DNA of 35,080 bases from a virus, in IMG/VR virus record IMGVR_UViG_3300008113_000708, positions 1 to 35,080 of that record; one strand, given 5' to 3'. Below, one piece after another: positions 12,978 to 31,147 of the stretch; position 1 is the stretch's first letter; each line of letters opens with the position of its first letter. The position numbers and the translations under genes were made by a program. Below the pieces are notes generated by a model, which was not told where the DNA came from, searched no databases, and worked only from the letters and a program-made list of their open reading frames with translations.

Positions 12978-13141
12978 TTGGTTTCTCTCAGTTCTTGTTT
13001 CAATTTACGCAATTCTTTTATCTCTCTTTTCAGTTGTGCTTTCATGTAAAGAGTCTCCACATAAGCCATTGAGGTTGCGCCAACAACAACACAGAGCATC
13101 ACTCCAATTAAAACCCACCAGATAAGTTTTGCAGTTGCCAC
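12974..13141 (-). CDS. 55-aa membrane protein with GTG start
   Basis: Reading from GTG at 13141 gives (M)ATAKLIWWVLIGVMLCVVV, one transmembrane helix, then a charged coiled coil LKREIKELRKLKQELRETK. The stop overlaps the next gene's ATG as ATGA, which supports it as real, and it begins within the 3' end of the upstream gene. Layout resembles a small i-spanin or holin accessory, but no family is recognised. Confidence 0.5.
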   Translation of the reverse strand: MATAKLIWWVLIGVMLCVVVGATSMAYVETLYMKAQLKREIKELRKLKQELRETK

Positions 13142-15744: not shown

Positions 15745-17234
15745 TATCTTCCTCCACGAGGTCTAGCCAAAATTTGATCTGCTTGATTCAAAATGTTTGT
15801 TCCAGTTGATGGCCGCTCTCCTGTTGTTGGAATTTGGCTTACTAGACTTTGCACTCTTTCTCTCTCGCCAACGCCAGAATATCTTGAATTAACATCTTTA
15901 GCAATGCGGTTTGAGAAGTCAACAAAAGTCTCACCTTGTTTCGCCGTGTAATCGCCAGCCACAAATGTCTTGTTGGCTCTTGTAAGAACACCATTGTTTT
16001 GAGTAACCCAATCAGTTTTTGCATTAGCAACTGCTGCATCGATCTCTTGGAGTTTTGCCATACCACGCAAGAAGCTGGCAAGAGTTCTGGCATCTGCTGT
16101 CTCAGTTGGGAAGCCACTCAATGCAAGTGAAATGTCCTGACGCAAATCGTAAGTTCCGTTTTGGAATCCACCAACCTTTGTTAAGTAAGAGTTAAATGTT
16201 GATAATCCACCATATCCACCACCAGAAGACTCAATCCTAGATGCCAAATCATTAAACTGGTTAGCCGCTTGTTTTGATGTTGCAGCAACAACTGCGCTGT
16301 CGTTGATAATTTTTCTAGTTGATTCTGGAATGTCAGTATTGAGTTTATTGATCTGAGCCAACTTTTCCAAAATAGCGACTTGTGTAGTTTGTGTATCCAA
16401 ACCAAGTTTGGCACCACGAACACCAATTTCGCTATTGATATTTTTAATCTCAGCAACTGTTTTAGCGTAGCCAATGGCTTTTACTTTATCTTCCCAATTT
16501 GCATCAATTGCCGCTTTTTGTGCATCAGCAGATTCTTTGATTAATTTTGCTTTTTGTGATTCAGGAGCATATCTAGCCTCAACAATTTTGATATTTGCTT
16601 CTGCCTGCGCTTTATCTGCCTCACTACCAGATTTTTGCGCCTTGTAGAAACCTTCAAGAACTGCTTGTCCTTCTGGTGTAACACTTAATTGCTCAACAAC
16701 TCTTTGGTTAATCATTGTTGGAGTTGCTTCTTTCTTTGTTGCTGGTTGCAAATAAGAAGTGTCAGCAGCCTCATCAACAATAACCTTTTCAGGTGTTACT
16801 TGTTCTGGAGTGCCTTGCACTAATATGCTTGGCAACAAACCTTGAGCCTGTTGCATTCTTTGCTGAGATTGCAAAACTGCTTGTCGCTTCATTGCGTCAT
16901 CACGAACAGCCAACAACTTAAATGCCAACTCAGGTATTCCTGCTTGTTGCGCTCTTTCAATACCACTAGCAATTGATTGTGGATTAGTTATATCTAATCC
17001 TTGCAATATCTGATTCTGTGCAGAAATCTTCCGCAACATTGGGTCTTCAGCACCCAATGCGCCACCGATAGCACTCCCTAACTGTCTACCACCATAGATA
17101 AGGCTAGTACGAGCAGATGCAAAAGGATCGAGTTGAGCCAATTGCGCTGATTGTGCTAATGCCTGTTGATTTTGTTCTGCTTGGTATGCTTCAGGAGTTA
17201 TTCCAAACAAACCGCTCATTATTGATTCTGCCAT
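15744..17234 (-). CDS. Internal virion-type protein, 496 aa
   Basis: I choose the ATG at 17234, preceded by AAGGAG with good spacing; the longer frame from 17258 overlaps the upstream gene. The product is Gln/Ala-rich and predicted mostly helical (QNQQALAQSAQLAQLD), with no enzyme motif. It lies between two similar Q/A-rich genes in a three-gene set reminiscent of the P22 gp7/gp20/gp16 or T7 gp14-16 ejection proteins by position, not by recognisable sequence. Confidence 0.65.
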   Translation of the reverse strand: MAESIMSGLFGITPEAYQAEQNQQALAQSAQLAQLDPFASARTSLIYGGRQLGSAIGGALGAEDPMLRKISAQNQILQGLDITNPQSIASGIERAQQAGIPELAFKLLAVRDDAMKRQAVLQSQQRMQQAQGLLPSILVQGTPEQVTPEKVIVDEAADTSYLQPATKKEATPTMINQRVVEQLSVTPEGQAVLEGFYKAQKSGSEADKAQAEANIKIVEARYAPESQKAKLIKESADAQKAAIDANWEDKVKAIGYAKTVAEIKNINSEIGVRGAKLGLDTQTTQVAILEKLAQINKLNTDIPESTRKIINDSAVVAATSKQAANQFNDLASRIESSGGGYGGLSTFNSYLTKVGGFQNGTYDLRQDISLALSGFPTETADARTLASFLRGMAKLQEIDAAVANAKTDWVTQNNGVLTRANKTFVAGDYTAKQGETFVDFSNRIAKDVNSRYSGVGERERVQSLVSQIPTTGERPSTGTNILNQADQILARPRGGR

Positions 17235-17245
17235 TTGATTACTCC

Positions 17246-18319
17246 TTAAATGCCCCACTCAACGGATGTTGGAACTGTTCCTTGTCCGCCATAACCATAC
17301 ACATTTTCTGCGCCATATTGATTCATTTGTTGTTGAGCATTTACATATGGCTGTCTGTATTGCGTAATTGCTTGTCCTAAATACGGGTTAGTTCCCACAC
17401 CTTGTAAAACATTAGCCAATGGGTTGTAAGCATTAGCGGCTTGTGCAGTCTGTGCGGCACTTAATCCACCTCGTAGTAACGATTGACCAACATTAGCACC
17501 AGCGTTAGCGGTGCGACCACCCAATTCACTACCAATTTGAAGTCCTTGTTGTCCCATTTGCTCAATAGTTCCACCCAAGCCAAGGGAAGTTTGGAATGGT
17601 GACAATGCGCCAACTTGACCAGCTTGATATTGACCAAGCAATTGCGATCCACTTCCCAACAATCCAGCACCAAATGCGGTTTGCCGTTGACCAGCCTCTT
17701 GTGCTTGAGCCGCAAGTTGTAAGTCTTGTTGTGCCAATGCGTTGTAATAGGCTTCCATCTCAGGATTAGCCGCACTAAGTCCCATTCCGCCGCTTGGACG
17801 CAATCCTGTTGCGCCTACTGACAAACCACCACGACCTGTATTAAACAGTTGGTTTTGTACTTGTGCATACTGTCTTTCACGGCTAGGAGCAATCAAGTTT
17901 TGTTGCTGTTCAATGTATTTCTGAGCCGCTTGTTCAGGAGTTTGAGCCAAGTACTGTTGACCAAGACTAAATAACCCACCAGCCGCACCTTGTAAAGGGG
18001 CGTACTGCTGTGGAGCCATTAAGCCCTGTTGTATTTGTTGTTGCGATAGGGCTTGTAACTGATCCTGATATTGTTGTAGTTCAGGAGATACTGTGTAACC
18101 AGCACTTGTTAATTGGCCAGTCGGATCAAACCCAAACTGAGATGAGCCAAAACGAGTTGTTGTCCCAATAGGGCGAAAACGAGCCGCATCAGCTGCTATT
18201 CGTGCCGCTTCTAGTTGTGCTTGTGCAGAGGTGTTAGCCGCACTTTTGGCGGCATCACCCGCCATCACGCCACCAACTATGTTTGCACCACCTAAAACTA
18301 ACGCCGCTGAGAATGGCAT
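17246..18319 (-). CDS. Gly/Gln/Ala-rich internal virion-type protein, 357 aa
   Basis: An N-terminal hydrophobic stretch (ALVLGGANIVGGVMAG) is followed by long Gln- and Ala-rich helical regions and a Tyr/Gly-rich tail. These features resemble small DNA-ejection proteins of podoviruses that assemble in the membrane. GGAG sits just before the ATG. No catalytic motif is visible. Assignment rests on composition and its place as first of three similar genes. Confidence 0.65.
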   Translation of the reverse strand: MPFSAALVLGGANIVGGVMAGDAAKSAANTSAQAQLEAARIAADAARFRPIGTTTRFGSSQFGFDPTGQLTSAGYTVSPELQQYQDQLQALSQQQIQQGLMAPQQYAPLQGAAGGLFSLGQQYLAQTPEQAAQKYIEQQQNLIAPSRERQYAQVQNQLFNTGRGGLSVGATGLRPSGGMGLSAANPEMEAYYNALAQQDLQLAAQAQEAGQRQTAFGAGLLGSGSQLLGQYQAGQVGALSPFQTSLGLGGTIEQMGQQGLQIGSELGGRTANAGANVGQSLLRGGLSAAQTAQAANAYNPLANVLQGVGTNPYLGQAITQYRQPYVNAQQQMNQYGAENVYGYGGQGTVPTSVEWGI

Positions 18320-18320
18320 A

Positions 18321-18749
18321 TTAAATCTCCTTTGCTACCGCTACATGAGTAGCATTAAAACCGAGTTTCTCGTAAAACATTTCTAAAGACTCTTTCAAGT
18401 TATAACTCGTAATAAGTCTTTTACAACCATTGTTCTTTGCAGTTTCTTCAACAAGATCAAACATTTGCTTTCCTATCCCATTTCCTCTGCATGATGGAGT
18501 CAAAAAGAACATATCTATCTGACACCATGTTTCATCGTAATAGGGGCTTTTGAAGAACCCATAAAACGCATACCCAATTGTCTTTCCTTCATCCTTGGCT
18601 ATTGCAACACGCAACTTACCAAGATACTCCTTGTTGAACATTGGCTTTTTATTCTTGAAATACTCCCAATGCTCCAACGCAATCTCGTCAAAGTTTTCAA
18701 TGTCATCCAATGTTCCATCAATGACTTGTATAACTTCTTCTGCAATCAT
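18321..18749 (-). CDS. GNAT-family N-acetyltransferase
   Basis: Motif A of the acetyl-CoA-binding fold is clear at about residues 80-95 (MFFLTPSCRGNGIGKQ, the RGxGIGxQ loop) and a C-terminal FYEKLGF segment (motif B) is present. I take the ATG at 18749, which forms an ATGA overlap with the tail gene stop, giving 142 aa; a start at 18764 is less likely. Acetyltransferases are often found in phage structural clusters, where they may modify virion or host proteins. The substrate is unknown. Confidence 0.85.
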   Translation of the reverse strand: MIAEEVIQVIDGTLDDIENFDEIALEHWEYFKNKKPMFNKEYLGKLRVAIAKDEGKTIGYAFYGFFKSPYYDETWCQIDMFFLTPSCRGNGIGKQMFDLVEETAKNNGCKRLITSYNLKESLEMFYEKLGFNATHVAVAKEI

Positions 18750-19450
18750 GCTGTGCGTTTCCACATATAAACAGTTATGTACGGCTGATAGTTAGCATTT
18801 GTGCCACTAGAGCCAGCAGATGCAACTGTTGTTGTAGATGAAATACTAGCGGTGGCTGTTGCTGTTGTATTTGGTCTGCCAAAGTTTAGGTTATTACCGC
18901 CTGCCAATTGCTCACTACCACCATTAGAAATAAAACCACTACCAACAGTAGAGCCGTGGCTGTGACCTGAGTCCGTTGATGTTGTTGTAGCCGTGTGGGT
19001 ATGGCTTACAGTAATAGCATCTGCACTACCACCAGTTTCTTCTGCCGCATCAAACAAAGAGTTGCCAGAGTCAAAGCCAACCATGACACGCCCTGCGCCA
19101 AATGCTGTCCAAGTACCAAAACCGAGCAAAGTAGCAGGATTGGTGCTGACACTTGCATTTGTATAGACCGAGCCAACAGGGTAAAGCAAAGCAATAGCCG
19201 CCTGAACAAACGCAGTAGTTGCTATCGTAGTTGTATTGCTTCCAGAACTCTGAGTAACCGCAATCGTGCCTGTTGGCAATGTAGGCGTACCAGTAAAGGT
19301 AGGAGATGCTAAATCTGCCTTGGTTGCAACAGCTGTAGCAATGTTGTTGAACTCTGTATCAATCTCAGTACCCTTGACAATCTTTAAAGGATTGCCAGAA
19401 GATAGGTTATCTTTGGTAGCAAAGTTCGTGCTTTTTGTGTAATCAGACAA
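18746..19450 (-). CDS. Tail fibre/collar-like protein with His-rich receptor-type tip, 234 aa
   Basis: The N-terminus (FATKDNLSSGNPLKIVKGTEI) resembles a virion-attachment segment common in phage tail proteins. A middle ALLYPVGSVYTN and FGTWTAFGAGRV region matches tail-collar-type domains. It is followed by SHTHTATTTSTDSGHSHG, the HxH repeats of fibre tips that bind metal ions in trimers. The C-terminus (NYQPYITVYMWKRTA) is the usual ending of such domains. Probably a trimeric adhesin or tail tip. Confidence 0.75.
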   Translation of the reverse strand: MSDYTKSTNFATKDNLSSGNPLKIVKGTEIDTEFNNIATAVATKADLASPTFTGTPTLPTGTIAVTQSSGSNTTTIATTAFVQAAIALLYPVGSVYTNASVSTNPATLLGFGTWTAFGAGRVMVGFDSGNSLFDAAEETGGSADAITVSHTHTATTTSTDSGHSHGSTVGSGFISNGGSEQLAGGNNLNFGRPNTTATATASISSTTTVASAGSSGTNANYQPYITVYMWKRTA

Positions 19451-19461
19451 GATAATCTCCT

Positions 19462-20394
19462 TTAACTTACTTTGCCACGCTTGGCTTGAATCTCAATTTT
19501 CTGTATAGACAAGGCTGTACCATTGATGTCAGCCTCATACCCTGTTTGTACAACCTTACCCGCACCAGACGCAGAAACATTCAATGTCTGCAAAGCAACA
19601 CCATCAGAGTAATACGCAACAGTAGTCGCATTTGCACCATACTCAGCAATGCCATAGTAGTAAACATCTTGCTCTGGAATACTTGCGTTGTCTGACAAAT
19701 AGTTGGTCTTAAAGTCAAAGCCCCACTTAAATGTCACATCTTGGTTTGTTCCACCAATCACCACAATCGACAACTTCTTCAAAATAGAAGTTACATTCTG
19801 ATCACCAAGGTCTGCATGGTTTGTGTAGTACAAAAAGCGATACGCTTCGTTGTAATCTTGGTAAGTGTTATATAAGCCGATATAACCATTCTGTCCAACC
19901 AACAAACTACCATCTCTCTTAGATAAAAAAGATTTTGGCGTGATAGAGTCCCAAGTCGTAACCCTCGCCGCACCATCTGGCAAGAAAGCCTTTGTATCAA
20001 AACACCATGTAGTGTCAATGCTTGGGGTTACCAACAAGTAAAACGCTTGTCTCTCAGAGTAAACAGACTTAATGTTGGCTAACGTCTCACCCGCCACAGT
20101 TCCCATCAAGTCATTACGTATATTCTTAGATAAGTCCCTCTCAGGCGCAGACTTCTCTTGGATTGTTCTCATCAACGATCTGACACCAGAGTTAGACAAG
20201 AACAACACATCTGTACTCGTTGTTTGAATACTGTCTCTAGCAATACAACCTATGCCCTCAATTGTGTCGCTCAAGGTCATTGTGGATGGAGTGGTTGCAT
20301 TGGCATAAACCAAGATTTGACGCTTACCAAAGATAAACAAGAATCCATTGTGTGCCGCCAAACCCGTAATCTCATCTGAGCCGTTAGGCCACAC
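19462..20394 (-). CDS. Tail stabilisation-type protein, C-terminal part (frame-broken)
   Basis: This frame continues the protein started at 20921 in a different register. It is open upstream of its nominal GTG start, to about 20460, and that extension reads HIWATGTAGSLDVSRVWPNG, which matches the expected continuation of the tail protein. Strand-rich segments (NGFLFIFGKRQILVYAN) and the C-terminal IEIQAKRGKVS agree with a beta-propeller or beta-rich tail component. It lacks its own SD, so is unlikely to be made separately. Confidence 0.75.
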   Translation of the reverse strand: MWPNGSDEITGLAAHNGFLFIFGKRQILVYANATTPSTMTLSDTIEGIGCIARDSIQTTSTDVLFLSNSGVRSLMRTIQEKSAPERDLSKNIRNDLMGTVAGETLANIKSVYSERQAFYLLVTPSIDTTWCFDTKAFLPDGAARVTTWDSITPKSFLSKRDGSLLVGQNGYIGLYNTYQDYNEAYRFLYYTNHADLGDQNVTSILKKLSIVVIGGTNQDVTFKWGFDFKTNYLSDNASIPEQDVYYYGIAEYGANATTVAYYSDGVALQTLNVSASGAGKVVQTGYEADINGTALSIQKIEIQAKRGKVS

Positions 20395-20405
20395 CCTAGA
20401 GACAT

Positions 20406-20921
20406 CTAGACTACCAGCAGTACCAGTAGCCCAAATATGCCCCGCAGTACATAACCACTTTTCTCAGACACACGCCTATAAGTAGTAGTACTCACAGCGG
20501 GGTCGTATATCAATGGGTTATACCCAGATTGGAAAAAGTATGTGATTTGATTTAAGGATACACATTGCCAGTTGCTTGCCGTGATGGTAGGAGCAGACCC
20601 CCCTCCCCCATAGGTCAATTCTGTAACAACATTGGATGCACCTAGTTTGAATAACTTGTTGTTGCCAGCGAACAGCACAGTTAAAGAGCCATCTGCTTGG
20701 ATTAACTCATGTATTACCTTGACATCATTAGCACCTAAATTGCCACTAGATGCGTTGACCCTAGACCACCCTTGACGTGAACCGATGCGTCCGTATTGGT
20801 CAATGATGCAATTGGTGGCAACAAGCGCAAAACCTTGATTCAAGTCCAAAGGCGAATCTTGGGTGTTCAGCCCGTAGAAGCCTGGCGCTGAGATGCTAGA
20901 GGTTTGTATTGCTTGGCTCAT
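20406..20921 (-). CDS. Tail stabilisation-type protein, N-terminal part (frame-broken)
   Basis: The frame begins SQAIQTSSISAPGFYGLNTQ and continues through FALVATNCIIDQYGRIGSRQG, a signature I associate with podovirus tail stabilisation/tail tube-type proteins. After SEKSGYV the reading frame diverges (LRGIFGLLVLLVV then stop), while the true continuation appears in another frame at about 20438. Homologues as I remember them have roughly 30-45 more residues here, so a frame-shifting internal deletion is likely. The start overlaps the upstream tail adaptor gene. Confidence 0.78.
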   Translation of the reverse strand: MSQAIQTSSISAPGFYGLNTQDSPLDLNQGFALVATNCIIDQYGRIGSRQGWSRVNASSGNLGANDVKVIHELIQADGSLTVLFAGNNKLFKLGASNVVTELTYGGGGSAPTITASNWQCVSLNQITYFFQSGYNPLIYDPAVSTTTYRRVSEKSGYVLRGIFGLLVLLVV

Positions 20922-21565
20922 ATTGCCACAAACTCCCCTGTCTCAGGATAACGAGTACCCTCAAGAGCAATATAGTCTGACAGCATTGATCTGTATAGCC
21001 CATAAGCCTCTGAAGAGGTTAGTCCACCATCTTCACCACGCTCAACCAATGCACGGGCATAGGCATTTTGTGCCACCAAAACATCAGGCACTTTCACCAC
21101 AGTACCATCCGCAGACAAAGTGGCTTGTGGGACAACCAAGGAAAACTTGATTGTGTATACACCATTAGGGATTGGGAACAGGGTGACTTTAGTATCGTAA
21201 GAGCCATCCACGCCATCAAAGGCAAACTCTGTTGGAATTGCGTTCACCAATGGGAGAAAGTTTTGCTTGCGATTCATGTCCACAAAGTTAATGTTTGTGA
21301 GACTTATGTTGCTTGTTGTGTTGATAACATCTTGCACTTGGAACTTTTGGCCAGCCCCCGTAAGGGAGTAGGAAGCAGTACTAGCTGCCGTGGTTACTGT
21401 GATGGTTTGACCCAAGATATTCCAACCAAATGCATCTTCTACTTGACGCTTGGCATCATTGACAAACTTGCCAATCAGAGTGGAATAGGAGGTTTCTGCG
21501 TTAGTAGAGACTGTTGTCTCACGCAACCGAACCAAGACATCGTTAATCAGTTCTAAGTAGGTCAT
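20918..21565 (-). CDS. Tail adaptor / head-tail connector protein, 215 aa
   Basis: The N-terminus (MTYLELINDVLVRLRE) and residues such as FVNDAKRQVEDAFGWNIL are typical of gp4/gp11-like adaptors that sit between portal and tail. The second half (NAYARALVERGEDGG) is helical as in that family. Length agrees with family. It overlaps genes on both sides by 4 bases, in the order expected for head completion followed by tail stabilisation protein. Confidence 0.82.
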   Translation of the reverse strand: MTYLELINDVLVRLRETTVSTNAETSYSTLIGKFVNDAKRQVEDAFGWNILGQTITVTTAASTASYSLTGAGQKFQVQDVINTTSNISLTNINFVDMNRKQNFLPLVNAIPTEFAFDGVDGSYDTKVTLFPIPNGVYTIKFSLVVPQATLSADGTVVKVPDVLVAQNAYARALVERGEDGGLTSSEAYGLYRSMLSDYIALEGTRYPETGEFVAI

Positions 21566-21897
21566 TGTCTTGTCAATCCTATTTCTTCAAAGGTTGCTAT
21601 AAAACTGAATGTACTGCCCGACTCAGTAGTTATTTTGATTTTGTCATCTTCTTCAAGAACAATATACGCACCACCATCAAATTGAAGATAGTTTTTTGAT
21701 GTGAAAGTGTATTGAGTCAATATATCAAGAGTGCTACTAGCACTTGCGTCAAACCATTGAACAGTTATGTGTTTGGTAGAGCCGCCTGTATTGTGAATGT
21801 ACATTACAGTAAATTTGGCGTAGTAGCCCTTGGGACAGGTATAGACTGTTGTGTCTACTGCCGCTGTGGGACTAATACCAACCGATAATGCTCTCAT
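21562..21897 (-). CDS. Small beta-rich structural protein, 111 aa
   Basis: Mostly beta-strand prediction with VYTCPKGYYAKFTVMYIHN and a tight hairpin LEEDDKIKITTESG. It resembles small decoration or fibre-base proteins of phages, but no family is certain. Four-base overlaps with both neighbours place it in the head/tail completion cluster. Confidence 0.65.
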   Translation of the reverse strand: MRALSVGISPTAAVDTTVYTCPKGYYAKFTVMYIHNTGGSTKHITVQWFDASASSTLDILTQYTFTSKNYLQFDGGAYIVLEEDDKIKITTESGSTFSFIATFEEIGLTRQ

Positions 21898-22196
21898 TTT
21901 GCCTTTGCCTTATTTCGTTCGGAAATAGACTTGGCTTTTGCCTTTGCGTCAGCCTTTGAGGATGCACCCCATGCTTTAAGCGAAAGAAGCAGTCTTGTCG
22001 GTTCACCATTCTTGTACTCAGCACCAGCCATATTGCCCATACGAGCCAAGAAACTTGCTCTGCGGGGGTTATCCCCCGATTTAACTGGTGCTTTTAAATT
22101 ACCACCAGTTTCACTATTATAAGACGCTCTTCCCTTGGCATTCAAGCCGCCTTTTGGATTTTGACCAGCTTTTGTTTGCCAAGTTGGAGATTTCAT
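21894..22196 (-). CDS. Basic DUF6321-like phage protein, 100 aa
   Basis: The N-terminal SPTWQTKAGQNPKGGLNAKG and the central PRRASFLARMGNM match a small phage family I recall as DUF6321. It is strongly basic with a Lys/Ala-rich tail (ADAKAKAKSISERNKAKAK). This composition suggests nucleic acid contact. It is followed by the adaptor genes and preceded by more Lys-rich small proteins. Confidence 0.7.
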   Translation of the reverse strand: MKSPTWQTKAGQNPKGGLNAKGRASYNSETGGNLKAPVKSGDNPRRASFLARMGNMAGAEYKNGEPTRLLLSLKAWGASSKADAKAKAKSISERNKAKAK

Positions 22197-22355
22197 CTAC
22201 TTCACCTTTTTTGGCTTCTTTGCGGTTTTAGCCGATTGTCTAAATGCTTCAGCAGTTGGCGCACCTTTGCTACCAACCTTACGCATCTTCTCGCCAGAGC
22301 CTGCTTTAATTCTTGCTTGTTTGGCATTGATATTGGCATAGAGTCCTTGTTTCAT
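22197..22355 (-). CDS. Basic 52-aa phage protein
   Basis: The frame from ATG 22355 reads MKQGLYANINAKQARIKAG, then SGEKMRKVGSKGAPTAEAF, ending AKKPKKVK. Closely similar short proteins (GLYANIN.K..RI.AGS.EKMR) are familiar from many phages of unknown function. The start overlaps the upstream stop as ATGA. Net charge is highly positive. Confidence 0.7.
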   Translation of the reverse strand: MKQGLYANINAKQARIKAGSGEKMRKVGSKGAPTAEAFRQSAKTAKKPKKVK

Positions 22356-22507
22356 TTCTTCTTCGCCTTTCCAGCCTCTGATAGGGCAATTGCGATGGCT
22401 TGTTTCTGAGACTTGACAACCTTGCCACCCTTGCCTGAGTGCAACTCACCCGCCTTGTACTCACGCATGACTTTGCTAATCTTGGCTTGTGCTTTGGTCT
22501 TTTTCAT
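22352..22507 (-). CDS. DUF6496-like basic protein, 51 aa
   Basis: ATG 22507 begins MKKTKAQAKISKVMREYKAG and continues ELHSGKGGKVV, then KQAIAIALSEAGK. The segments KVM.E.K.G.LHSG and KQAIAIALSEAG match a short family I recall as DUF6496, common in phages and bacteria. It overlaps neighbours at both ends by 4 bases. Function unknown; a DNA-condensing or packaging role is only inferred from charge. Confidence 0.72.
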   Translation of the reverse strand: MKKTKAQAKISKVMREYKAGELHSGKGGKVVKSQKQAIAIALSEAGKAKKK

Positions 22508-22689
22508 TTACCACGACCTGTTTTCTTCATCATGTTCGTAGCAGTACGTTGACCACGTTGGGGCATAGCCCTTTGTTTGCCAACAGCAACCACAATGGTC
22601 ACAGGCATACCCTTTTTCTTGCCATACTCTTTAGCCTCTTTCTCGCCCTTTTCAGAGTAAGCAAATTTCTTTTTTCCGACCATAGGCAT
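22504..22689 (-). CDS. Lysine-rich small protein, 61 aa
   Basis: The sequence MPMVGKKKFAYSEKGEKEAKEY followed by GKKKGMPV resembles short phage proteins seen next to the capsid genes. AAGGGG lies upstream of the ATG with acceptable spacing. It is very basic, with 14 or more lysines, and ends KKTGRGK. No domain is assigned. Confidence 0.68.
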   Translation of the reverse strand: MPMVGKKKFAYSEKGEKEAKEYGKKKGMPVTIVVAVGKQRAMPQRGQRTATNMMKKTGRGK

Positions 22690-22700
22690 AGGATTTCCCC

Positions 22701-22904
22701 TTATCTAAGTAGTTTTCCAGCAACAAAAGTGATTACGCCACCAGCCATAGAAGCGATGGTCATACCCATCCAAAATCCACCTTTTGACTTGTTTGCCAAC
22801 TCAAGGAGTGCCTTGACATCATTGGCCAGCTGGTGAACCTCAGTCTGCAAGGAGGCAACCTGTGCCTCTAACTTGCCAAAATCTCTAGCATCAATATCAC
22901 TCAT
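22701..22904 (-). CDS. XhlA-like coiled-coil membrane protein, 67 aa
   Basis: A coiled coil (LEAQVASLQTEVHQLANDV, about 12-30) is followed by one transmembrane helix (FWMGMTIASMAGGVITFVAG). This is the layout of XhlA/hemolysin-type phage proteins that associate with holins, though its position among head genes is away from the lysis cassette. It overlaps the upstream gene by 4 bases. Confidence 0.65.
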   Translation of the reverse strand: MSDIDARDFGKLEAQVASLQTEVHQLANDVKALLELANKSKGGFWMGMTIASMAGGVITFVAGKLLR

Positions 22905-23101
22905 ACCAGTAATTCCTTACGGGGTCTACCCATAGGTTTCTTCAAAGTTAATGTCTGCTTTGTTTCATCAACTTTTACCACCTCAATAGCAGCAGAAGTA
23001 TCAACCTCTGTGTATTCGGAATTGGTTTTCATGGTTTTAATGTCGTAGTCATCTCTGAACTCTACAACTGTCCCACTTTGATTGCATCTGAACAAAGCCA
23101 T
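22901..23101 (-). CDS. Hypothetical 66-aa protein
   Basis: The N-terminus MALFRCNQSGTVVEFRDDYD suggests a small beta structure. The C-terminus has KKPMGRPRKELL, an AT-hook-like GRP core. AAGGAA precedes the ATG. It follows a stem-loop terminator and may be expressed at a reduced level compared with the capsid gene. Function unknown. Confidence 0.62.
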   Translation of the reverse strand: MALFRCNQSGTVVEFRDDYDIKTMKTNSEYTEVDTSAAIEVVKVDETKQTLTLKKPMGRPRKELLV

Positions 23102-23121
23102 TTAATTCCTTAATGAAGAAA

Positions 23122-23139
23122 GGGGGGACAAGTCCCCCC
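23122..23139 (-). terminator. Intrinsic terminator after the 107-aa gene
   Basis: GGGGGGA (23122-23128) and TCCCCCC (23133-23139) form a 7-bp stem with a CAAG loop. In the minus direction the stem is followed by TTTCTTC, a modest U-tract. It separates the 107-aa structural gene from the small basic gene cluster. Confidence 0.6.
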
Positions 23140-23144
23140 GATCT

Positions 23145-23468
23145 TTAGACCATACGAACTACAACAATTCGCATAGTGGTGGATGCCAAGTCAGCGGTTG
23201 AGCCAGACTCGTTTTGGATACGGAATTTGACAGTATCTGCGGCTGAGACATAACCTGTCACAGTCAAACCTACCAAATCAACGCCTAAAGATGCACCGAT
23301 AACCATGTCACCCAAGGCAACGCCTGGGATCGTAATGTCATCAGTCTCGCCTGCGCCATCAACCAAAGAACCAGCGTTCAAAGTTGCTGTTACAGCCCAT
23401 GTATCGCTGAAAATGCCACGGAATTGGTCATTTCCTCTGCGACTTGTTACTGCGGATGCGGTTGCCAT
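23145..23468 (-). CDS. Head decoration-like or capsid-associated protein, 107 aa
   Basis: This small beta-rich protein (TDDITIPGVALGDMVIGAS and DTVKFRIQNESGS) lies directly after the major capsid gene and resembles decoration or stabilisation proteins in related phages by size and location. AGGAG lies 7 bases before the ATG. It is bracketed by two terminators, suggesting its own expression level. Identity as a decoration protein is inferred. Confidence 0.65.
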   Translation of the reverse strand: MATASAVTSRRGNDQFRGIFSDTWAVTATLNAGSLVDGAGETDDITIPGVALGDMVIGASLGVDLVGLTVTGYVSAADTVKFRIQNESGSTADLASTTMRIVVVRMV

Positions 23469-23488
23469 GTATTTTCTCCTAATTAGTT

Positions 23489-23519
23489 AAAAAAGTCCCC
23501 CTACCACTAGGGCAGGGGG
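23489..23519 (-). terminator. Intrinsic terminator after the major capsid gene
   Basis: In the minus direction CCCCCTGCC pairs with GGTAGGGGG (9 bp, one G-U) around a CTAGT loop, followed by ACTTTTTT. This is a textbook rho-independent terminator just 12 bases beyond the capsid gene stop. Confidence 0.8.
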
Positions 23520-23530
23520 CGCAACTGCAA

Positions 23531-23839
23531 TTAGGCTGGTACTGCCAAAGCAAACGCAGATGAAGACAAAGCCGCACCAGTAGTAGCTGCTGTACGAACT
23601 GCCTTCACTCCATACAAAGTGTCAGAAGTGAACAATGTGGCAAGGTATTCTTGCTTGTATTGCACTTGTGAACGAACAGCAATTTGCTCAACCAAAACCA
23701 TAGCATCGCGGTGACCCATCAAGCAGATACGATCAGCACCAGAGTTACCAGCACCAGTATCAGCATTTGAAGTGGTAAACACAGGGATACCATAGAGTTG
23801 ACCAATTTCACCATTGCGGATTGCATCTCCATTACCCAC
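23531..23839 (-). CDS. Major capsid protein, C-terminal part (frame-broken)
   Basis: This frame, open upstream to about 23867, reads TEQAFVGNGDAIRNGEIGQL and continues YGIPVFTTSNADTG to ALAVPA. It clearly completes the coat protein started at 24438 but in another register. The nominal start is a GTG without an SD. The sequence TEQAFVG before NG.AIRNG is the usual loop of this coat family as I recall it. Confidence 0.78.
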   Translation of the reverse strand: MGNGDAIRNGEIGQLYGIPVFTTSNADTGAGNSGADRICLMGHRDAMVLVEQIAVRSQVQYKQEYLATLFTSDTLYGVKAVRTAATTGAALSSSAFALAVPA

Positions 23840-24438
23840 AAATGCTTGCTCTGTATAGGAGTGTCATTGTCATCAAGGCGTTGGATGGTTCTGCGGATAG
23901 CGGCATCTGTCAATGCAGAAGCATTGCTACTTGTGCTGTTATAAGCAGTAGTGCCATCACCACCAATGAAAGCCTTAGTAGTTGTATTGCTTGTCGCATA
24001 GTCATTTGTTCCCACAGTTGCGCCATTGAAAGCACGACCCAATTGGATCAAATCAGTATCGACTTGCTTGGCTAAGGCATAGCCAGCGTCTGCTGTGTAG
24101 AAGTTACGCAGGCTGTTTAAGGCTTGGGCTTCTACGATGTCTTCGATCAAACGGCTATATTCATAGTGTTTGTTGATAGACACTTGCACTTCAGTCTCTG
24201 TGGCGGCAATCAAAGTGACTGCTGTCTCAGCGGCTTTTAGTGAGGCTGAACCACGGGTAGGTGCAGGGATATGAACCACATCACCCTTCTTGCCCTTGAA
24301 GTTCATCTTCATTACCGCATTTGCGACAACGAGGTTCTTTTTGTAGGCGGCAATAATCTCATCACTCCAAATTTCAGGAATGAACGTTGCCGAGGTGGTG
24401 GTTGTGACCGAATTGGTCGGGCTAAATGCTGTTGCCAT
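23719..24438 (-). CDS. Major capsid protein, N-terminal part (frame-broken)
   Basis: The frame begins MATAFSPTNSVTTTTSATFI followed by PEIWSDEIIAAYKKNLVVAN, then GKKGDVVHIPAP and VSINKHYEYSRLIEDIVEAQ, all characteristic of HK97-fold coat proteins of podoviruses. After RRTIQRLDDNDTPI the frame turns to out-of-frame sequence, ending in VLVLIVSA. The continuation appears in another frame from about 23857. Combined length is near 300 aa, about 20-30 residues short of what I remember for the family, so a frame-shifting deletion is likely. Confidence 0.82.
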   Translation of the reverse strand: MATAFSPTNSVTTTTSATFIPEIWSDEIIAAYKKNLVVANAVMKMNFKGKKGDVVHIPAPTRGSASLKAAETAVTLIAATETEVQVSINKHYEYSRLIEDIVEAQALNSLRNFYTADAGYALAKQVDTDLIQLGRAFNGATVGTNDYATSNTTTKAFIGGDGTTAYNSTSSNASALTDAAIRRTIQRLDDNDTPIQSKHLWVMEMQSAMVKLVNSMVSLCLPLQMLILVLVTLVLIVSA

Positions 24439-24466
24439 GTTAAATCTCCAAAAAACGATAGGTTAA

Positions 24467-25231
24467 TTACTTAACCCGTCCATCTGCGTATGCTTGCATG
24501 ATTTCCTCACTCAAAGCATCGTATCTGTTCGGGTCTGTCATCTTCAGCCGAATAAGGTCAGCCCTTCGATAAACTCTCTTTGAACTCTCCCCAGAACCGC
24601 CTACATCCACAGTTGCCGCCTTCAAGTTATTCTTACGGGTTGTCTCTCCAGACTCACTCGCTTGCTTAACCTTCACGCCCCTCAACTGCTTAAATGTTGA
24701 CAACAACTCGTTAGCACTATCGTAGTCAAATGCACCATCTGCCTTCGCAAACAAGTCTAGGCGAACAGGTGAGGATTTCACCCAATTCACAAAGTCTTGG
24801 TCTTGAACAATCTGCACATAGTCAGGATGTTCTTGCGTTAACTTCTGCTGTATCTGCATCCTCTTGAAGTCGTTTGCCGCTTGGCGACCCGCAACTACAT
24901 CGGGATGTTGGTCTACTGTCTTACGAATTGCCTCTTTAGGATTCTCAAAGAAATCTACTTCAGGCTCATCTTTCTCAATAGGTTGTTTGTTAGAACTAAG
25001 GTTTTGCTTTATAAGTTCATCTGCCAGTTTACGAATCTCACCGACTTCCTTACCTTGCCTCTCGATTAACTTTTCAGCCTCAAGGTGCATTTTGACCACA
25101 TCTTCCAAAGACTTTTCCCGATATTTGTCGGGTATTTGGGCGAGTGGCTCTGTTTCAGGGAGTTGGGTTTGTTTTTGTTCCTCAACTGCGTCTAACTCAC
25201 TTAGCGTCTCATCTTCTTTGTCAATCAACAT
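24467..25231 (-). CDS. Scaffolding protein, 254 aa
   Basis: Acidic N-terminus (DKEDETLSELDAVEEQ), then KYREKSLEDVVKMHLEAEKL and IERQGKEVGEIRKLADEL, a helical core with the RQGKEVGE signature I recall from podovirus scaffolds. The C-terminal YRRADLIRLKMTDPNRYDAL is basic, the typical coat-binding tail. It lies immediately upstream of the coat gene, as expected. It would assemble inside the procapsid and leave before packaging. Confidence 0.85.
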   Translation of the reverse strand: MLIDKEDETLSELDAVEEQKQTQLPETEPLAQIPDKYREKSLEDVVKMHLEAEKLIERQGKEVGEIRKLADELIKQNLSSNKQPIEKDEPEVDFFENPKEAIRKTVDQHPDVVAGRQAANDFKRMQIQQKLTQEHPDYVQIVQDQDFVNWVKSSPVRLDLFAKADGAFDYDSANELLSTFKQLRGVKVKQASESGETTRKNNLKAATVDVGGSGESSKRVYRRADLIRLKMTDPNRYDALSEEIMQAYADGRVK

Positions 25232-25285
25232 ATTTTTCCTTTTTCCTGCGTTTTGATCGTTCTCAGGACATTTAACTCGCGCTTG

Positions 25286-25513
25286 TTACGAGTTTTGCTT
25301 ACGTTCAGACTTCAACTTGTCGAGATGGCTTTTCTCGAACTTCCCATGCGCTGATGGGAAAGAACCAGACCACCCCTCCAACCTAAAGGCTGGCGCACTT
25401 AATATGCGGTTGGCTGTATCTCCGCACTCGCACCTAAAATTCTGTGTCTCATAATCACAGAATCTTTCGGTTTTATGCCCGTTTTCACAGGCAAATTCAA
25501 ATATTCTTCTCAT
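25286..25513 (-). CDS. FmdB-type zinc ribbon protein, 75 aa
   Basis: Cys9 with GHK, Cys19 and the CECGD pair (28-30) form a zinc ribbon like that of the FmdB regulatory-type family. It is followed by RLEGWSGSFPSAHGKFEKSH, familiar from phage versions next to scaffold genes. It overlaps the next upstream gene by 17 bases. Role in head assembly or regulation unknown. Confidence 0.72.
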   Translation of the reverse strand: MRRIFEFACENGHKTERFCDYETQNFRCECGDTANRILSAPAFRLEGWSGSFPSAHGKFEKSHLDKLKSERKQNS

Positions 25514-25736
25514 TCAATTCCTCGTATGCTCTTTCGCTGACCTCTTTCAAGGTTCTCAGCCATGTCAGAATTGACAACTCGCCCTTTTTAAAGTGCAAAG
25601 TCGCTTCGTCAGGGATTGTACTGATATTGTTCAATGATGCAATCATGTTGTCAATATCTTCCATTAAGTCAAGCCACCCATCAGTTCCCATCGTAGAGAA
25701 CCGATTTTCGTAGTACTTTTGCAGCTCTGGGGTCAT
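25497..25736 (-). CDS. Hypothetical 79-aa helical protein
   Basis: The product begins MTPELQKYYENRFSTMG and is mostly helical with a WLDLMEDID segment and KKGELSILTWLRTLKEVSE. I recall similar short proteins in this position in related podoviruses, without known function. It overlaps genes on both sides. Confidence 0.68.
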   Translation of the reverse strand: MTPELQKYYENRFSTMGTDGWLDLMEDIDNMIASLNNISTIPDEATLHFKKGELSILTWLRTLKEVSERAYEELNEKNI

Positions 25737-25999
25737 TTCGGATACTTTTCCTTAACCGCTTGGCAGTCGGCTATGTATTTGTCAATCTGTGCTTGGTCAC
25801 CTTTGGCTATGCCATCCAAATAATCAGTAAACGGGGGATATTCCGCTTGGCGTTTGGCTATGTAGGCATGAGCATCAATGTAGGCTTGAACTGCTGTTTC
25901 GTCATAGGTAACGGGGTTGCCATCAGCATCAAAAGCATCGTCACCACGGATAGTAACGACAGAAGAATTGACTGCACGAATTGCTTCATGTTTGTTCAT
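25733..25999 (-). CDS. Tail-assembly-like small protein, 88 aa
   Basis: Contains EYPPFTDYLDGIAKGDQAQI and DCQAVKEKYPK, a pattern seen in many small phage tail-region proteins (YP.F.DYLD...KGD...Y...C..VK..YPK). It sits right after the tail fibre genes. Such proteins are often annotated as fibre assembly or hypothetical. The start overlaps the neighbour by 4 bases. Confidence 0.68.
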   Translation of the reverse strand: MNKHEAIRAVNSSVVTIRGDDAFDADGNPVTYDETAVQAYIDAHAYIAKRQAEYPPFTDYLDGIAKGDQAQIDKYIADCQAVKEKYPK

Positions 26000-26490
26000 G
26001 CGGCTATCTCCATAAGTGTCATTGTTGCGGTTGTACTGCCGTGTTGACTAGTTACTGAAACTCCTGAACTTTTAAACCCTAATGTGTAAGTTGTTGCAGA
26101 GGTTGTTGCGGGGGAATCTAAATAATTAATACTAATTCCAGTAACAACAGTACTAGAACCAGCCGTTGCTGTTCCATAAACAAAATATCCTGAACTCGCT
26201 AAATTTGTTCCTGATACAGTACCTCTAAATACAGTCCAATTACAATCGCCCAAACTATTTGCTCGAATTACATTGCTAACAATTATGAAAACTTTGCTTG
26301 TTGAACTAGATGGCGTTATGGTTGCAGTTAACCCTGTCGTTACATAACTTGTGCTTGTTGTGTCAACTTGTGTTGCATAGGTTGCTTGCACCACTTGCAA
26401 CACCCTACCAGAAGATGCTTGCACCGCAGAAGCACTACCCGCTGTTACTGGGAATGTGACTCCCAAACTTCCATCTAAGACGAGTGCCAT
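25996..26490 (-). CDS. Short tail fibre-type protein, 164 aa
   Basis: I take ATG 26490 (MALVLDGSLGVTFPVTAGSA), which follows the stop of the preceding fibre gene directly; the frame from 26514 would overlap that gene. The sequence is Ser/Thr/Ala-rich and beta-like throughout, ending STTATMTLMEIAA. It resembles receptor-binding domains in phage fibre tips. It is one of several fibre-like genes in a row. Confidence 0.65.
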   Translation of the reverse strand: MALVLDGSLGVTFPVTAGSASAVQASSGRVLQVVQATYATQVDTTSTSYVTTGLTATITPSSSTSKVFIIVSNVIRANSLGDCNWTVFRGTVSGTNLASSGYFVYGTATAGSSTVVTGISINYLDSPATTSATTYTLGFKSSGVSVTSQHGSTTATMTLMEIAA

Positions 26491-26491
26491 A

Positions 26492-27445
26492 TTACTGCCC
26501 TTCGAGTGCCACAATTCGGGCGGTTAGTGCGTTGATTGTTTCGGCTTGTGTGTCGTTTATAGCCTTGAGTTCTTGGATTGCTTTGACAAGAACTGGAATT
26601 AAGGCGGATGGGCCAACAGTTTTGTAAGTTGTTTCTTCATCTTTGTTAATTTGCCATTCACTAACGGATTCTGGAAATACAGTTTCTATTTCTTGAGCAA
26701 TAAAACCAAGTTGATTTTTTTGGTCATTTCCATACCCTTTTTTCCAGTCGTAACGAACAGGGCGCAAAGCATTAACTACAGCCAATCCATCCGATGAATC
26801 ACGGATATTTTCTTTTAGCCTTTGGTCTGAAATTGATTGAACGGATGTATTTTGGGCATAAATTACACCATTTCCGCCTACACGGAACTGTGCAGTCGAA
26901 GTTCCATTAGTGTACATTCCAAGAAAGTCAAAATTAGAACTTGATGCTCTTGATGTAGAACCGCAAATTACTGTTGCGGAATAACTAGCATTTGATGCGA
27001 GAACACCTAAGCCACCAGTGTTTGCAGATTGTGTTGCGCTTAATATTGAATCGTTAACTCGTGATGTACTCCCCACCATTACATTACCGCTGGAGTCAAT
27101 ACGCATACGCTCTGAACCAGAACTTCCTGAGTCTGCACCTGTAAAAACTTTTACATTATTTCCTTCTAAAATCATGTCCCTAATATTATTATTGGTAGCG
27201 TGTTGACTACGAATAACTAAAGAATCATCAACCCCTGGGTCACGGACATAAAAGTCCATTCTGCGAATAGAAGTAGGCAAAATAGATAGTGTTTTTACAG
27301 GCGTTCCACCTATGCCAACTTGCTGACTAGCATCAACAGTAATCGCAGTAGTCTCGTTTGTCTGTATGTTTAGGATGCCCGAATCGTCACCCTGCGTTAT
27401 CAACCCGCCATTTCCTGTGGACGTGGCATTTATCACGTTAGGCAT
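26492..27445 (-). CDS. Tail fibre/spike with C-terminal S74 intramolecular chaperone
   Basis: The N-terminal ~200 residues are Ser/Thr/Asn-rich fibre sequence (NATSTGNGGLITQGDDSGI). From S206 the sequence SDQRLKENI begins the peptidase S74 chaperone domain, with FIAQEIETVFPES and a C-terminal coiled coil (VKAIQELKAINDTQAETINA). In this family the Ser/Lys pair (here S206, K211) cleaves off the chaperone after the fibre trimer folds. It overlaps the homing endonuclease gene by one base. Confidence 0.85.
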   Translation of the reverse strand: MPNVINATSTGNGGLITQGDDSGILNIQTNETTAITVDASQQVGIGGTPVKTLSILPTSIRRMDFYVRDPGVDDSLVIRSQHATNNNIRDMILEGNNVKVFTGADSGSSGSERMRIDSSGNVMVGSTSRVNDSILSATQSANTGGLGVLASNASYSATVICGSTSRASSSNFDFLGMYTNGTSTAQFRVGGNGVIYAQNTSVQSISDQRLKENIRDSSDGLAVVNALRPVRYDWKKGYGNDQKNQLGFIAQEIETVFPESVSEWQINKDEETTYKTVGPSALIPVLVKAIQELKAINDTQAETINALTARIVALEGQ

Positions 27446-28098
27446 TATTGTTTTCCTTCAATTTGCATTAGTTTTTCTGCTTTTCGTTTTACGTTATAAG
27501 CAAGCAAAGTTTTTCTTATTTTTTCTTTTACTTCATCGTTCATAGTGTACGGACACTTACCCATCCTGTCGGCAGACATCTTGGCTTTTGTTTCATCAGA
27601 ATGCAAGATGCCACGCCTTGATTCGCTCATCTTTTTTTTAGTCTCTTCCGACCATTTCTTTCCCTTGTTCCATGCAACTTGCATTCCAACTTGTCCTTTG
27701 TTTGATGGGGACTTTCCAAGGTGGGACTCGCTGAGTTTCTTGCAATGTTCTTCTGAAAGATTCTTCCCCTTCCACACGCCAGGTATACCGAGTCGGTCTT
27801 TGTTGCCATATCGTGCTGGCGGTTTACCACCTCCACAAATAATATTCCAACCAATTGCTTCGCTTGGACGTAGTTTTGCTTCAATGTCAAGGCAGTAAGA
27901 CTCATCGGCTATCAATATAGTTTTCTTCACTAAGTTGTCCCAGCCATGCTTCTTAATTGCAAAGTTAAGATGTCTATTTTGTTTTTTGCGTAAATGCTCT
28001 GTAAAGCGTCTTTCTGTATCATTAGACACACCAATGTATCCCTGACTGAACATATCAGTATGGTCAGGGTGGTGAATCCAATAAACGCTAGTAGCCAT
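27445..28098 (-). CDS. GIY-YIG homing endonuclease with NUMOD3 repeats
   Basis: The N-terminus carries the GIY-YIG nuclease fold: VYWIHH as the GIY-type strand, GYIGVSN as the YIG strand, R30/R31 and E74 (LDIEAKL) as catalytic-type residues. Residues about 109-181 contain three NUMOD3 DNA-binding motifs (KGKNLSEEHCKKLSESHLGK, WSEETKKKMSESRRG, HSDETKAKMSADRMGK). Such free-standing endonucleases spread by cutting alleles lacking them. Here it lies between fibre genes with TAATG overlaps, and is not within an intron that I can see. Confidence 0.88.
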   Translation of the reverse strand: MATSVYWIHHPDHTDMFSQGYIGVSNDTERRFTEHLRKKQNRHLNFAIKKHGWDNLVKKTILIADESYCLDIEAKLRPSEAIGWNIICGGGKPPARYGNKDRLGIPGVWKGKNLSEEHCKKLSESHLGKSPSNKGQVGMQVAWNKGKKWSEETKKKMSESRRGILHSDETKAKMSADRMGKCPYTMNDEVKEKIRKTLLAYNVKRKAEKLMQIEGKQ

Positions 28099-28256
28099 TA
28101 TTGTTCCTCTGCTGGTTCTGGCTGATTGCCTTCAGCCACCCATGCTAAATATTGCTCATCATGTTCTGTGCAAGTCACACGGCAAACATTGTCATCGTCA
28201 ATACGGGCAAGTATTTGCACACCACCAGTAGTTTTTTGAAGTAATTTGTAAATCAT
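28098..28256 (-). CDS. Hypothetical 52-aa protein between fibre genes
   Basis: ATG 28256 overlaps the upstream fibre stop as ATGA, and its TAA overlaps the ATG of the endonuclease gene. The translation begins MIYKLLQKTTGGVQILARID and ends WVAEGNQPEPAEEQ. Similar short proteins following phage tail fibre genes are familiar to me, and some act in fibre assembly, but this one is unassigned. Confidence 0.6.
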   Translation of the reverse strand: MIYKLLQKTTGGVQILARIDDDNVCRVTCTEHDEQYLAWVAEGNQPEPAEEQ

Positions 28257-29359
28257 AATTCAGCACTCCATCCAAGATATGCAGAGGAAGTATTAGCCCT
28301 TAACATACTCCCCTGCCCACCTGTTAAACCCGATGCAACAGTAAAAGTTGCGGATGCTCCAAATACTGTACCAGAATCAAATGTAGGGACGCTACTACAA
28401 TTCGTAGAGGCTGTAGAGTAAAAAACACGATAATCAGTAGCAGTTCCACTTTGTTCTAATGCAGTTGGATTGGTTCTCATATCTACGGGAAATTTGATAT
28501 ATCCAATTGCACTTGTAGTGCCGTAATTAAAAGAACTACCAAATAGTGTTGACCCATCAACTGCTTTTATTCTGTAATAGTACCTCTGGCACATAGCAAG
28601 TTCCGCAGAATAAGGTCGGTAATCAAAACTTGTTGCTGTTGAGCCTTTTTCTAGCATTACCCCCGTCAGATAGAAGGTTGCACCTGATGTTCCTACGACT
28701 GAAACTGCGCCTGTCGCAGAAACTTTATTTCCAGCCGCCCAAGCCCCCGCAGTTCCACTATATGTTGTTCCTACACCCAATCCAATATTTACTTGTATGC
28801 CAACGCCATTAGTAGTAAGCCAAGTTCCTGAAGTATCGCCAGTAATAGTGATTGATTTTTGTTCCCATGTATTAGCAGAACTAATTGTGTAAGTGAAAGG
28901 ATAATTTCTTGCTGAACCGCTATTATTCAGAGCACCACCGAATGTGCCTGTTAACGAACTACGCACCCAAAATGATATTGTGATTGTTTGTGCGTTTGCA
29001 GTTCCCCAGTTTAAGTCTGCTGTGTTGTAACCTTCAATCAATTGCACTATAGCAAAATAGTCGTTAGTTCCAACCGAATAAGCAGAAGATGAAGTTACGC
29101 CTAAATAATTTGTAAAACCTACTGGCGGGGTAACTGAGCCAGCATTTTGTTGAACTGTGTATTTAGATGTTTGGGAAGCAAAACCTTTCCATCTGTCTAA
29201 AGTGTATTGTCCATCTGTAGGAGTAACACTAGCCCCCGCATTACGCTGGTCTATCACCATCTGGCCGTTCAGAATTCTATTTTTAAACCCATACAAACCA
29301 GACGAACTTACTCCGTCTGAAGTGGTCATCAAGTCTGCATTTACAACGCCATAAGCCAT
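28253..29359 (-). CDS. Tail fibre/receptor-binding protein, 368 aa
   Basis: The N-terminus MAYGVVNADLMTTSDGVSSS continues FKNRILNGQMVIDQRNAGAS and TLDRWKGF, a common entry segment of phage tail fibre or appendage proteins. The centre resembles a carbohydrate-binding jelly roll (TITISFWVRSSLTG, TGVMLEKGSTATSFDYRPY). The C-terminal part is variable and beta-rich. Probably a receptor-binding fibre. GGAAC precedes the ATG. Confidence 0.8.
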   Translation of the reverse strand: MAYGVVNADLMTTSDGVSSSGLYGFKNRILNGQMVIDQRNAGASVTPTDGQYTLDRWKGFASQTSKYTVQQNAGSVTPPVGFTNYLGVTSSSAYSVGTNDYFAIVQLIEGYNTADLNWGTANAQTITISFWVRSSLTGTFGGALNNSGSARNYPFTYTISSANTWEQKSITITGDTSGTWLTTNGVGIQVNIGLGVGTTYSGTAGAWAAGNKVSATGAVSVVGTSGATFYLTGVMLEKGSTATSFDYRPYSAELAMCQRYYYRIKAVDGSTLFGSSFNYGTTSAIGYIKFPVDMRTNPTALEQSGTATDYRVFYSTASTNCSSVPTFDSGTVFGASATFTVASGLTGGQGSMLRANTSSAYLGWSAEL

Positions 29360-29368
29360 TCTTGTTCC

Positions 29369-31147
29369 TTAAAGTATTAGCCAACGCTGGCCTGAGGCAA
29401 CAGTTACCGCTTGACCACTTGCAATTGTGATTGCCCCAACAGAGAATCCGTTTGTGCCAGATGCTATCGTGTAACTTGTGCTTACTGTTGTTGAGTTCAC
29501 CATGATGCCGTTGCCAGCAACAGGCACATCTACCTTTAACTCACCCGTACTTGGTTTATACAAATACTTTGCATTACTTGTATAAACTGTTGAGGGAGTA
29601 CCAGAGGTAGCTGCCGCAAACAATGGATATAGGTTAGTCGATGTAGTTGTATCGTTGCTAATGCTTGCGCCAGCCGTACCATTTGCCGCAGAAGTAATGC
29701 GCCCATAGGTATCCACAGTAATGTTGGTTGCTGTGTAACTACCCGCAGTCACTCCACTTGTTGCCAATGCAACAGTTCCACTCGTTGTGATCGTGCCACC
29801 AGTTAAGCCTGTGCCAGCAGTTACAGATGTAACAGTTCCCGTATACGCATCATTGGAAGTAACTGTAAAGTTGGGATATGTTCCCGTAATGCTAGTTGTC
29901 CCTGCTCCCGTCAATGCAACAGTCTGATCTGGTGCAGAGTTAGTGATCGTAAAGTTAGGATAAGTGCCACTTGTACTAATTCCTGTGCCAGCAGTCAACG
30001 CAACTGTTTGGTCAGGCGCAGAGTTGGTGATAGTGAAGTTAGGATAAGTTCCTGATGTGCTGATACCAGTACTAGCAGTCAGGCTCACAGTCTGATCTGG
30101 TGCGCTATTGGTAATCGTGAAGTTGGGGTATGTGCCACTCGTTGAGATGCCTGTGCTTGCAGTCAACGAAACAGTCTGATCAGGAGCAGAGTTTGTAATG
30201 GTCAGAGTGCCACTTGATGTGATTGGGCTACCTGTAATGCTGATGCCTGTGCCAGCCGTAGCTGCCACACTTGTCACAGTTCCAACCGATACCGCACCAG
30301 TTTGTCCGTTAACAGAAGTAACTAGGTTGCTCTGGTCAATCTTTTGCCAATTAGTCCCATTAAACAGTAACCAATCGCCAATTTGCCAATCAGTTATGCC
30401 GTCAAGGTTAGTAGAACCAGCCGTTGCAACTATGTAGTAATAGCCATTTACACCCACTCCACTCGCCAATGTAGGTGTATTAGTAGATGCGTTCCAAGTG
30501 CCTTGGTAACTTAGACCACCAGCAACAGATGCCCAAGAAGTTGATGTTCCATTGGTAGTTAGGAACTTGCCTGCATTTCCTGTTTGACTAGGAATCAGGT
30601 TTGTTATCTGTGTTTGTAGGGAGGCTAGAGTATCAAGGACAGACTGAGAAGTGCCGCCACCATTAGTAATGACTTTGATGCGTTCCGCAAGATCAGGAGC
30701 AACAACTTCACCAACATTGAGTTCAACACCACTAGACAAGCCAATGACAAGGCTACCATCAAAATCGATACGAGCAAAGGAGACACCAATACCATCATTA
30801 CCATCGATTCCATCACGCCCATCGCGTCCATTCTCGCCTTTAACTCCTTGAACGCCTTGTTTTCCATCACGTCCATCTTTTCCATTCTTGCCATCCCTTC
30901 CATCTTTTCCGTCTTTTCCGTCTTTAATGGAGGCAACTCGCTTCTCTAGTGTGTTTCCCACTAAGTCATAACGAGATTGGATGTCGGCTTCAATTTTCTT
31001 TAAGGCATCAATAACTAGGTTGACGTTCTCACCAATGCGTTGCTTTTGAACCTCTTTTGACTTGGCAATAGATAGCTGAATAGCGTCAAGTGCCGCCTTC
31101 TTCTCAGCATCCGTCATGTCTTCTAGGTTTGGAATGATGTCACTCAT
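29369..31147 (-). CDS. Long tail fibre with collagen-like and 28-aa repeats, 592 aa
   Basis: Residues 1-70 form a helical, coiled-coil attachment region. Residues about 76-119 are collagen-like G-X-Y repeats (GKDGRDGKNGKDGRDGKQG), which form trimers. Later a 28-residue unit (SAPDQTVSLTASTGISTSGT then YPNFTITN) is repeated four times in tandem. The C-terminus is a beta-rich tip ending VASGQRWLIL. The portal gene ends as a 4-base overlap with this start. It is the first of several fibre genes and probably the main adsorption fibre. Confidence 0.82.
   Translation of the reverse strand: MSDIIPNLEDMTDAEKKAALDAIQLSIAKSKEVQKQRIGENVNLVIDALKKIEADIQSRYDLVGNTLEKRVASIKDGKDGKDGRDGKNGKDGRDGKQGVQGVKGENGRDGRDGIDGNDGIGVSFARIDFDGSLVIGLSSGVELNVGEVVAPDLAERIKVITNGGGTSQSVLDTLASLQTQITNLIPSQTGNAGKFLTTNGTSTSWASVAGGLSYQGTWNASTNTPTLASGVGVNGYYYIVATAGSTNLDGITDWQIGDWLLFNGTNWQKIDQSNLVTSVNGQTGAVSVGTVTSVAATAGTGISITGSPITSSGTLTITNSAPDQTVSLTASTGISTSGTYPNFTITNSAPDQTVSLTASTGISTSGTYPNFTITNSAPDQTVALTAGTGISTSGTYPNFTITNSAPDQTVALTGAGTTSITGTYPNFTVTSNDAYTGTVTSVTAGTGLTGGTITTSGTVALATSGVTAGSYTATNITVDTYGRITSAANGTAGASISNDTTTSTNLYPLFAAATSGTPSTVYTSNAKYLYKPSTGELKVDVPVAGNGIMVNSTTVSTSYTIASGTNGFSVGAITIASGQAVTVASGQRWLIL
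29860..30200 (-). repeat. Four tandem 84-bp coding repeats in the long fibre gene
   Basis: Related units with the TCTGATC-type junction recur near 29921, 30005, 30089 and 30173, an exact 84-bp period, encoding the 28-residue fibre repeat. Copies differ at mainly synonymous positions. The number of copies could vary by recombination. Confidence 0.8.

Follow-up and report, generated by a model that had tools for sequence, protein, structure and literature searches.

Organization of the coat gene

The window, which is the whole stretch of 35,080 nucleotides (nt) analysed here, carries a late module of tailed-phage type on the minus strand that includes genes for the terminase large subunit and the portal, tail-fibre-like genes, a scaffold-like gene, the coat gene and tail genes. 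The coat gene, encoding the major head protein of family phrog_267, lies at 23531–24438 on the minus strand and is split by an internal deletion with its junction at 23857|23858. On the N-terminal side of this junction (23858–24438, minus strand) codons 1–194 are intact, and frame 1 of the gene translates into a genuine head-protein N terminus as far as ...RLDDNDTP, followed by a foreign tail that runs to a stop at nt 718. The C-terminal half of the protein (TEQAFVGNGDAIRNG...; from TEQAFVG onward) is encoded by 23531–23857 of the same strand, in a frame shifted by −1 from that of the N-terminal half.

Relative to two near-identical contigs described below (G001 and G006), 64 nt are absent at the junction, which shows a 3-nt microhomology. 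Alignment to near-identical relatives reveals that the loss corresponds to codons 195–216 (22 codons) of a 323-residue protein, and because 64 nt are missing the two halves are out of frame. The two reading frames share the stretch between the junction and the stop at nt 718. The continuous reading frame of about 317–331 residues seen in near relatives is thus not found in the window copy, which is split instead. The initial annotation, made from the letters of the window and its open reading frames, had proposed a frame-shifting internal deletion in the major capsid gene, placed it near 23850–23858 and estimated that 20–30 residues were missing. The alignment agrees with it on the nature of the lesion, on its position and on the size of the lost segment.

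The two halves of the gene match consecutive regions of the phrog_267 profile (positions 15–212 and 235–323 of 410, with E-values of 1.9e-25 and 1.3e-15, respectively). Neither half has a match in Pfam, where PF19821 (Phage_capsid_2) was matched by an intact relative only; for this relative, L003, the match values are 2.1e-51 with phrog_267 and 2.8e-11 with PF19821. As judged from these profiles, the family of the broken gene is that of an ordinary major head protein. An AlphaFold model of an intact coat relative has a mean pLDDT of 34, too poor to judge an HK97-type fold or to place the lost segment.

Conservation of the missing segment

Related coat loci were collected by retaining 80 of 598 confirmed loci and adding 22 from pattern scans, giving 102 loci on 99 distinct contigs (L091, L092 and L093 repeat L003, L002 and L001). 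All 102 encode exactly 22 residues with no stop at codons 195–216, leaving the window as the sole exception. Within the segment, 19 of the 22 positions are invariant across 46 aligned relatives picked from 81 non-redundant open reading frames. Within the limits of the search, a stop closes the coat reading frame in 86 of 99 loci; 85 of these frames are 317–331 residues long, and the remaining one, at a locus edge, has 281 residues. A deletion shared by homologues, which the initial annotation had named as one observation that would speak against its reading, was looked for and is absent throughout this set. Going by the related loci, the absence of the segment from the window is not due to chance, nor is a broken coat gene the state of the lineage.

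Near-identical contigs and the genome map

Three contigs from other samples are near-identical to the window. The first, G001 (IMGVR 3300008110_001206; 11,496 nt), shares 11,226 nt with the window at 99.85% identity (17 mismatches). The other two, G005 (23,122 nt) and G006 (12,857 nt), both come from metagenome 3300031784 and jointly span the whole window at 99.8–100% identity per block. The coat gene is whole in both G001 and G006. Across the whole window, the substitutions relative to these contigs amount to about 0.1%, and small indels are lacking altogether, as no gap occurs within any block aligned to G001, G005 or G006. A megablast search with window positions 18000–35080 found no near-identical cultured phage.

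G005 links the end of the window (35080) to its start (1) through just 339 nt. The map therefore closes, as either a circular or a permuted genome, of which the window represents nearly the whole length. G005 and G006 overlap each other at one end by exactly 127 nt. At 22504–22507, within a run of small lysine-rich reading frames, about 280 nt present in the relatives L097 and L098 are absent from both the window and G006.

G001 continues past the missing 64 nt for a further 99 nt that are identical to the window, and it terminates exactly there (locus L082:1–99), 99 nt beyond the coat junction. This end may reflect chance, a nearby strain boundary, or a branch in a k = 100 assembly graph caused by reads that bear the junction. 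If the assembler of G001 used k = 100, the coat junction is possibly also present in the reads of sample 3300008110.

Two further deletions in the window

The coat gene is not the only site of loss. Compared with G006, the window is shorter at three places within 12.6 kb, lacking 64, 66 and 100 nt. The second junction lies at 20448|20449 on the minus strand, where 100 nt are absent relative to G006; it shows no microhomology and is out of frame. The gene affected (19462–20921, minus strand) encodes 519 residues in G006, with PHROGs matches to amidase, head closure and internal virion proteins, and the deletion leaves it as two reading frames of 171 and 310 residues. The 100-nt stretch is kept in all eight loci that span this site (seven distinct contigs).

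The third junction, at 16138|16139 on the minus strand, marks the absence of 66 nt relative to G006. It has a 4-nt microhomology and is in frame, so that a gene at 15744–17258 (minus strand), for which no PHROGs match was found, encodes 504 residues in the window instead of the 526 in G006. The 66-nt stretch is present in 3/3 non-window loci, which represent only two distinct contigs. Scans of IMG/VR viral contigs for the exact patterns of all three junctions, including a 26-mer spanning the coat junction, matched no contig, although these scans may have omitted records that closely resemble the window.

Strain variation around the deletions

The three sites differ with regard to the strain variation that surrounds them. 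The window differs from G006 by 12 single-nucleotide polymorphisms (SNPs), and 7 of them fall within 100 nt of the 100-nt deletion, a clustering matched by none of 20,000 random placements. At these seven SNPs the window carries the alleles of another strain, L098, in 7/7 cases and those of strain L106 in 3/7, and both L098 and L106 possess the 100-nt segment. G006 differs from L098, and also from L106, at both the first and the last of the missing bases. Among 801 possible placements of the deletion, only 6 would put both edges on variable sites for L098, and only 1 for L106.

Around the coat and 66-nt deletions the flanks of the window belong to the same strain as G006, with the nearest SNP to the coat junction 254 nt away, so no strain switch is seen at these two sites. 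In 10 relatives, the 110 nt adjoining the coat junction contain 0–2 strain differences, followed by 12–15 differences in 74 nt. This jump in divergence around 23747, toward the 3′ end of the coat gene, is likely a recombination boundary between strains. A pocket of strain-variable sequence at the coat site was also considered. The 64-nt segment, which lies between two nearly invariant flanks, covers 10 strain-variable sites, where the average 64-nt tile has 4.6; with 14.6% of the tiles in the gene equalling this richness, the pocket is suggestive, not exceptional. At the 66-nt site the sole relative available for comparison, L117, differs at 3 of 66 positions inside the segment and at 12 and 15 of 100 positions in the flanks. 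Since there are fewer differences inside than outside, there is no strain-variable pocket at that site.

Elsewhere, two allele sets occur inside metagenome 3300031784 at 12987–13031, where G005 and G006 overlap, indicating that mixed strains are real in this virus. In a tail-protein-like gene at 30798–30860, 11 SNPs relative to the near-identical contigs are packed into 63 nt, and at 11/11 of them the window agrees with L197 and L099, making this a second patch of switched strain.

Origin of the break

The break in the coat gene is probably a technical artefact of one assembled consensus sequence. We base this judgement on the intact near-identical copies of the gene together with the two like gaps in other genes of the window; the sharp divergence of strains beside the coat junction and the invariance of most of the lost residues also count for it. 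The underlying phage, near-identical in two other metagenomes, would carry an intact coat gene, and the source sample would have held several very similar strains. The assembler would have joined blocks shared between strains at a few places, dropping the 60–100 nt that lay between them, and the joining would thus belong to the assembly rather than to library molecules or to nature. Earlier methods are reported to smooth genomic variants (PMC6710874).

Within a technical cause, mis-joining during co-assembly of co-occurring strains is the most likely route. A join at strain-shared blocks is favoured because the edges of the 100-nt deletion fall on strain-variable sites, where a natural deletion has no reason to end. 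The unchanged strain identity of the flanks at the coat and 66-nt sites counts against it. The initial annotation had offered three options for the break. An assembly or mixed-population artefact is the one supported, in view of the near-identical intact contigs, the two further deletions and the local strain switch at the 100-nt deletion. The other two, a defective prophage and an unusual mode of expression, are disfavoured, for reasons given below.

A less likely technical route is that the deletions arose in laboratory molecules, by template switching or slippage of the polymerase during library amplification, and were then assembled; we assign to it a minor share of the probability placed on a technical cause. 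The 3- and 4-nt microhomologies at two of the three junctions have a probability of about 0.006 under random joins. As they are commoner than random joins would give, molecules that were copied or recombined fit better than graph joins at these two junctions. Against a laboratory origin speak the lack of microhomology at the 100-nt deletion and the position of that deletion's edges on strain-variable sites. Moreover, chimeric reads are usually a minority and are not expected to win the consensus, which counts against library chimeras.

Secondary structure bears on the same question. The coat segment folds more stably than most stretches, being equalled by only 9 of 320 tiles on one strand and 27 of 320 on the other, and this would suit slippage or switching by a polymerase. 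Neither of the other two segments stands out in this respect: 44/320 and 179/320 tiles fold as stably as the 66-nt segment on the two strands, and 146/319 and 63/319 as stably as the 100-nt segment. Deletion driven by hairpins was accordingly rejected as a general cause, since only the coat segment is fairly structured.

An unlikely alternative to a technical artefact is that the window represents a real defective genome, either a minority or a locally fixed lineage, sustained by coat protein from intact co-infecting siblings. Illegitimate recombination leaves short deletions with microhomology, which counts in favour of such a genome, and the stop of G001 at 99 nt past the coat junction could mean a graph branch in another sample. 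However, three deletions with no small indel at about 99.9% identity do not form an ordinary mutation spectrum, and the two split genes would both require complementation. In the scans described above, none of the junction patterns was recovered from another viral contig, and the bounding of the 100-nt deletion by strain-variable sites likewise argues against a natural origin. In its broader form, a natural population in which a defective genome with several short late-gene deletions is common and shares virion proteins with intact co-infecting siblings, the idea is more doubtful still.

A decaying or defective prophage is highly improbable. Two split genes and one shortened gene within a single contig would suit decay, but the window has no host flanks, its ends being joined through only 339 nt in G005, and the remainder of its sequence is about 99.9% identical to contigs that have an intact coat gene. 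Programmed −1 frameshifting or translational bypass, which would yield a working coat protein from both frames, is barely credible, even though the C-terminal frame is shifted by −1 and overlaps the N-terminal one between the junction and nt 718: a scan of the coat gene for X_XXY_YYZ found a single canonical −1 slippery heptamer, which lies well upstream of the overlap, at nt 65, and is not in the right frame, the largely invariant codons 195–216 are missing whatever the ribosome does, and the split is not conserved, as the related loci all read through without a stop.

Implications

With a technical artefact as the preferred reading, the break in the coat gene is of low biological interest and is useful as a quality warning. 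A near-full-length metagenomic phage contig without ambiguous bases can hide several gene losses of 60–100 nt, and gene calling, searches for marker genes and claims of defective phages would all be misled by such losses. Near-identical contigs from other samples expose them without recourse to reads. Real deletions, by contrast, would hint at defective genomes that share coat protein in nature.

Comparison with known systems

Among phage records, the best listed matches of the coat family include capsid proteins of cyanophages such as Anabaena phage A-4L and Pf-WMP3. The identity of the intact relative to phage records is low, 34.7% in the best of the 50 listed. By sequence, the closest coat protein of solved structure is chain 9jwb_A, whose alignment shows no gap over the segment that the window coat gene has lost. 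Compared with the proteins of phrog_267 and PF19821, the window copy lacks codons 195–216 and is out of frame.

The coat gene of T7, as mentioned in the Phage Annotation Guide (PMC8785237), is a known case of a programmed frameshift, giving the 10A and 10B products of gene 10. It resembles the window in having two frames in the coat gene, whereas the window gene has no slippery heptamer in the overlap of its frames and is missing residues. Another parallel comes from the same guide, which warns of frameshift-type assembly errors in phage genomes (PMC8785237). In those errors, as in the window, a single consensus has an essential gene split while the homologues are whole; the lesion in the window differs in being a 64-nt loss accompanied by two others of like size.
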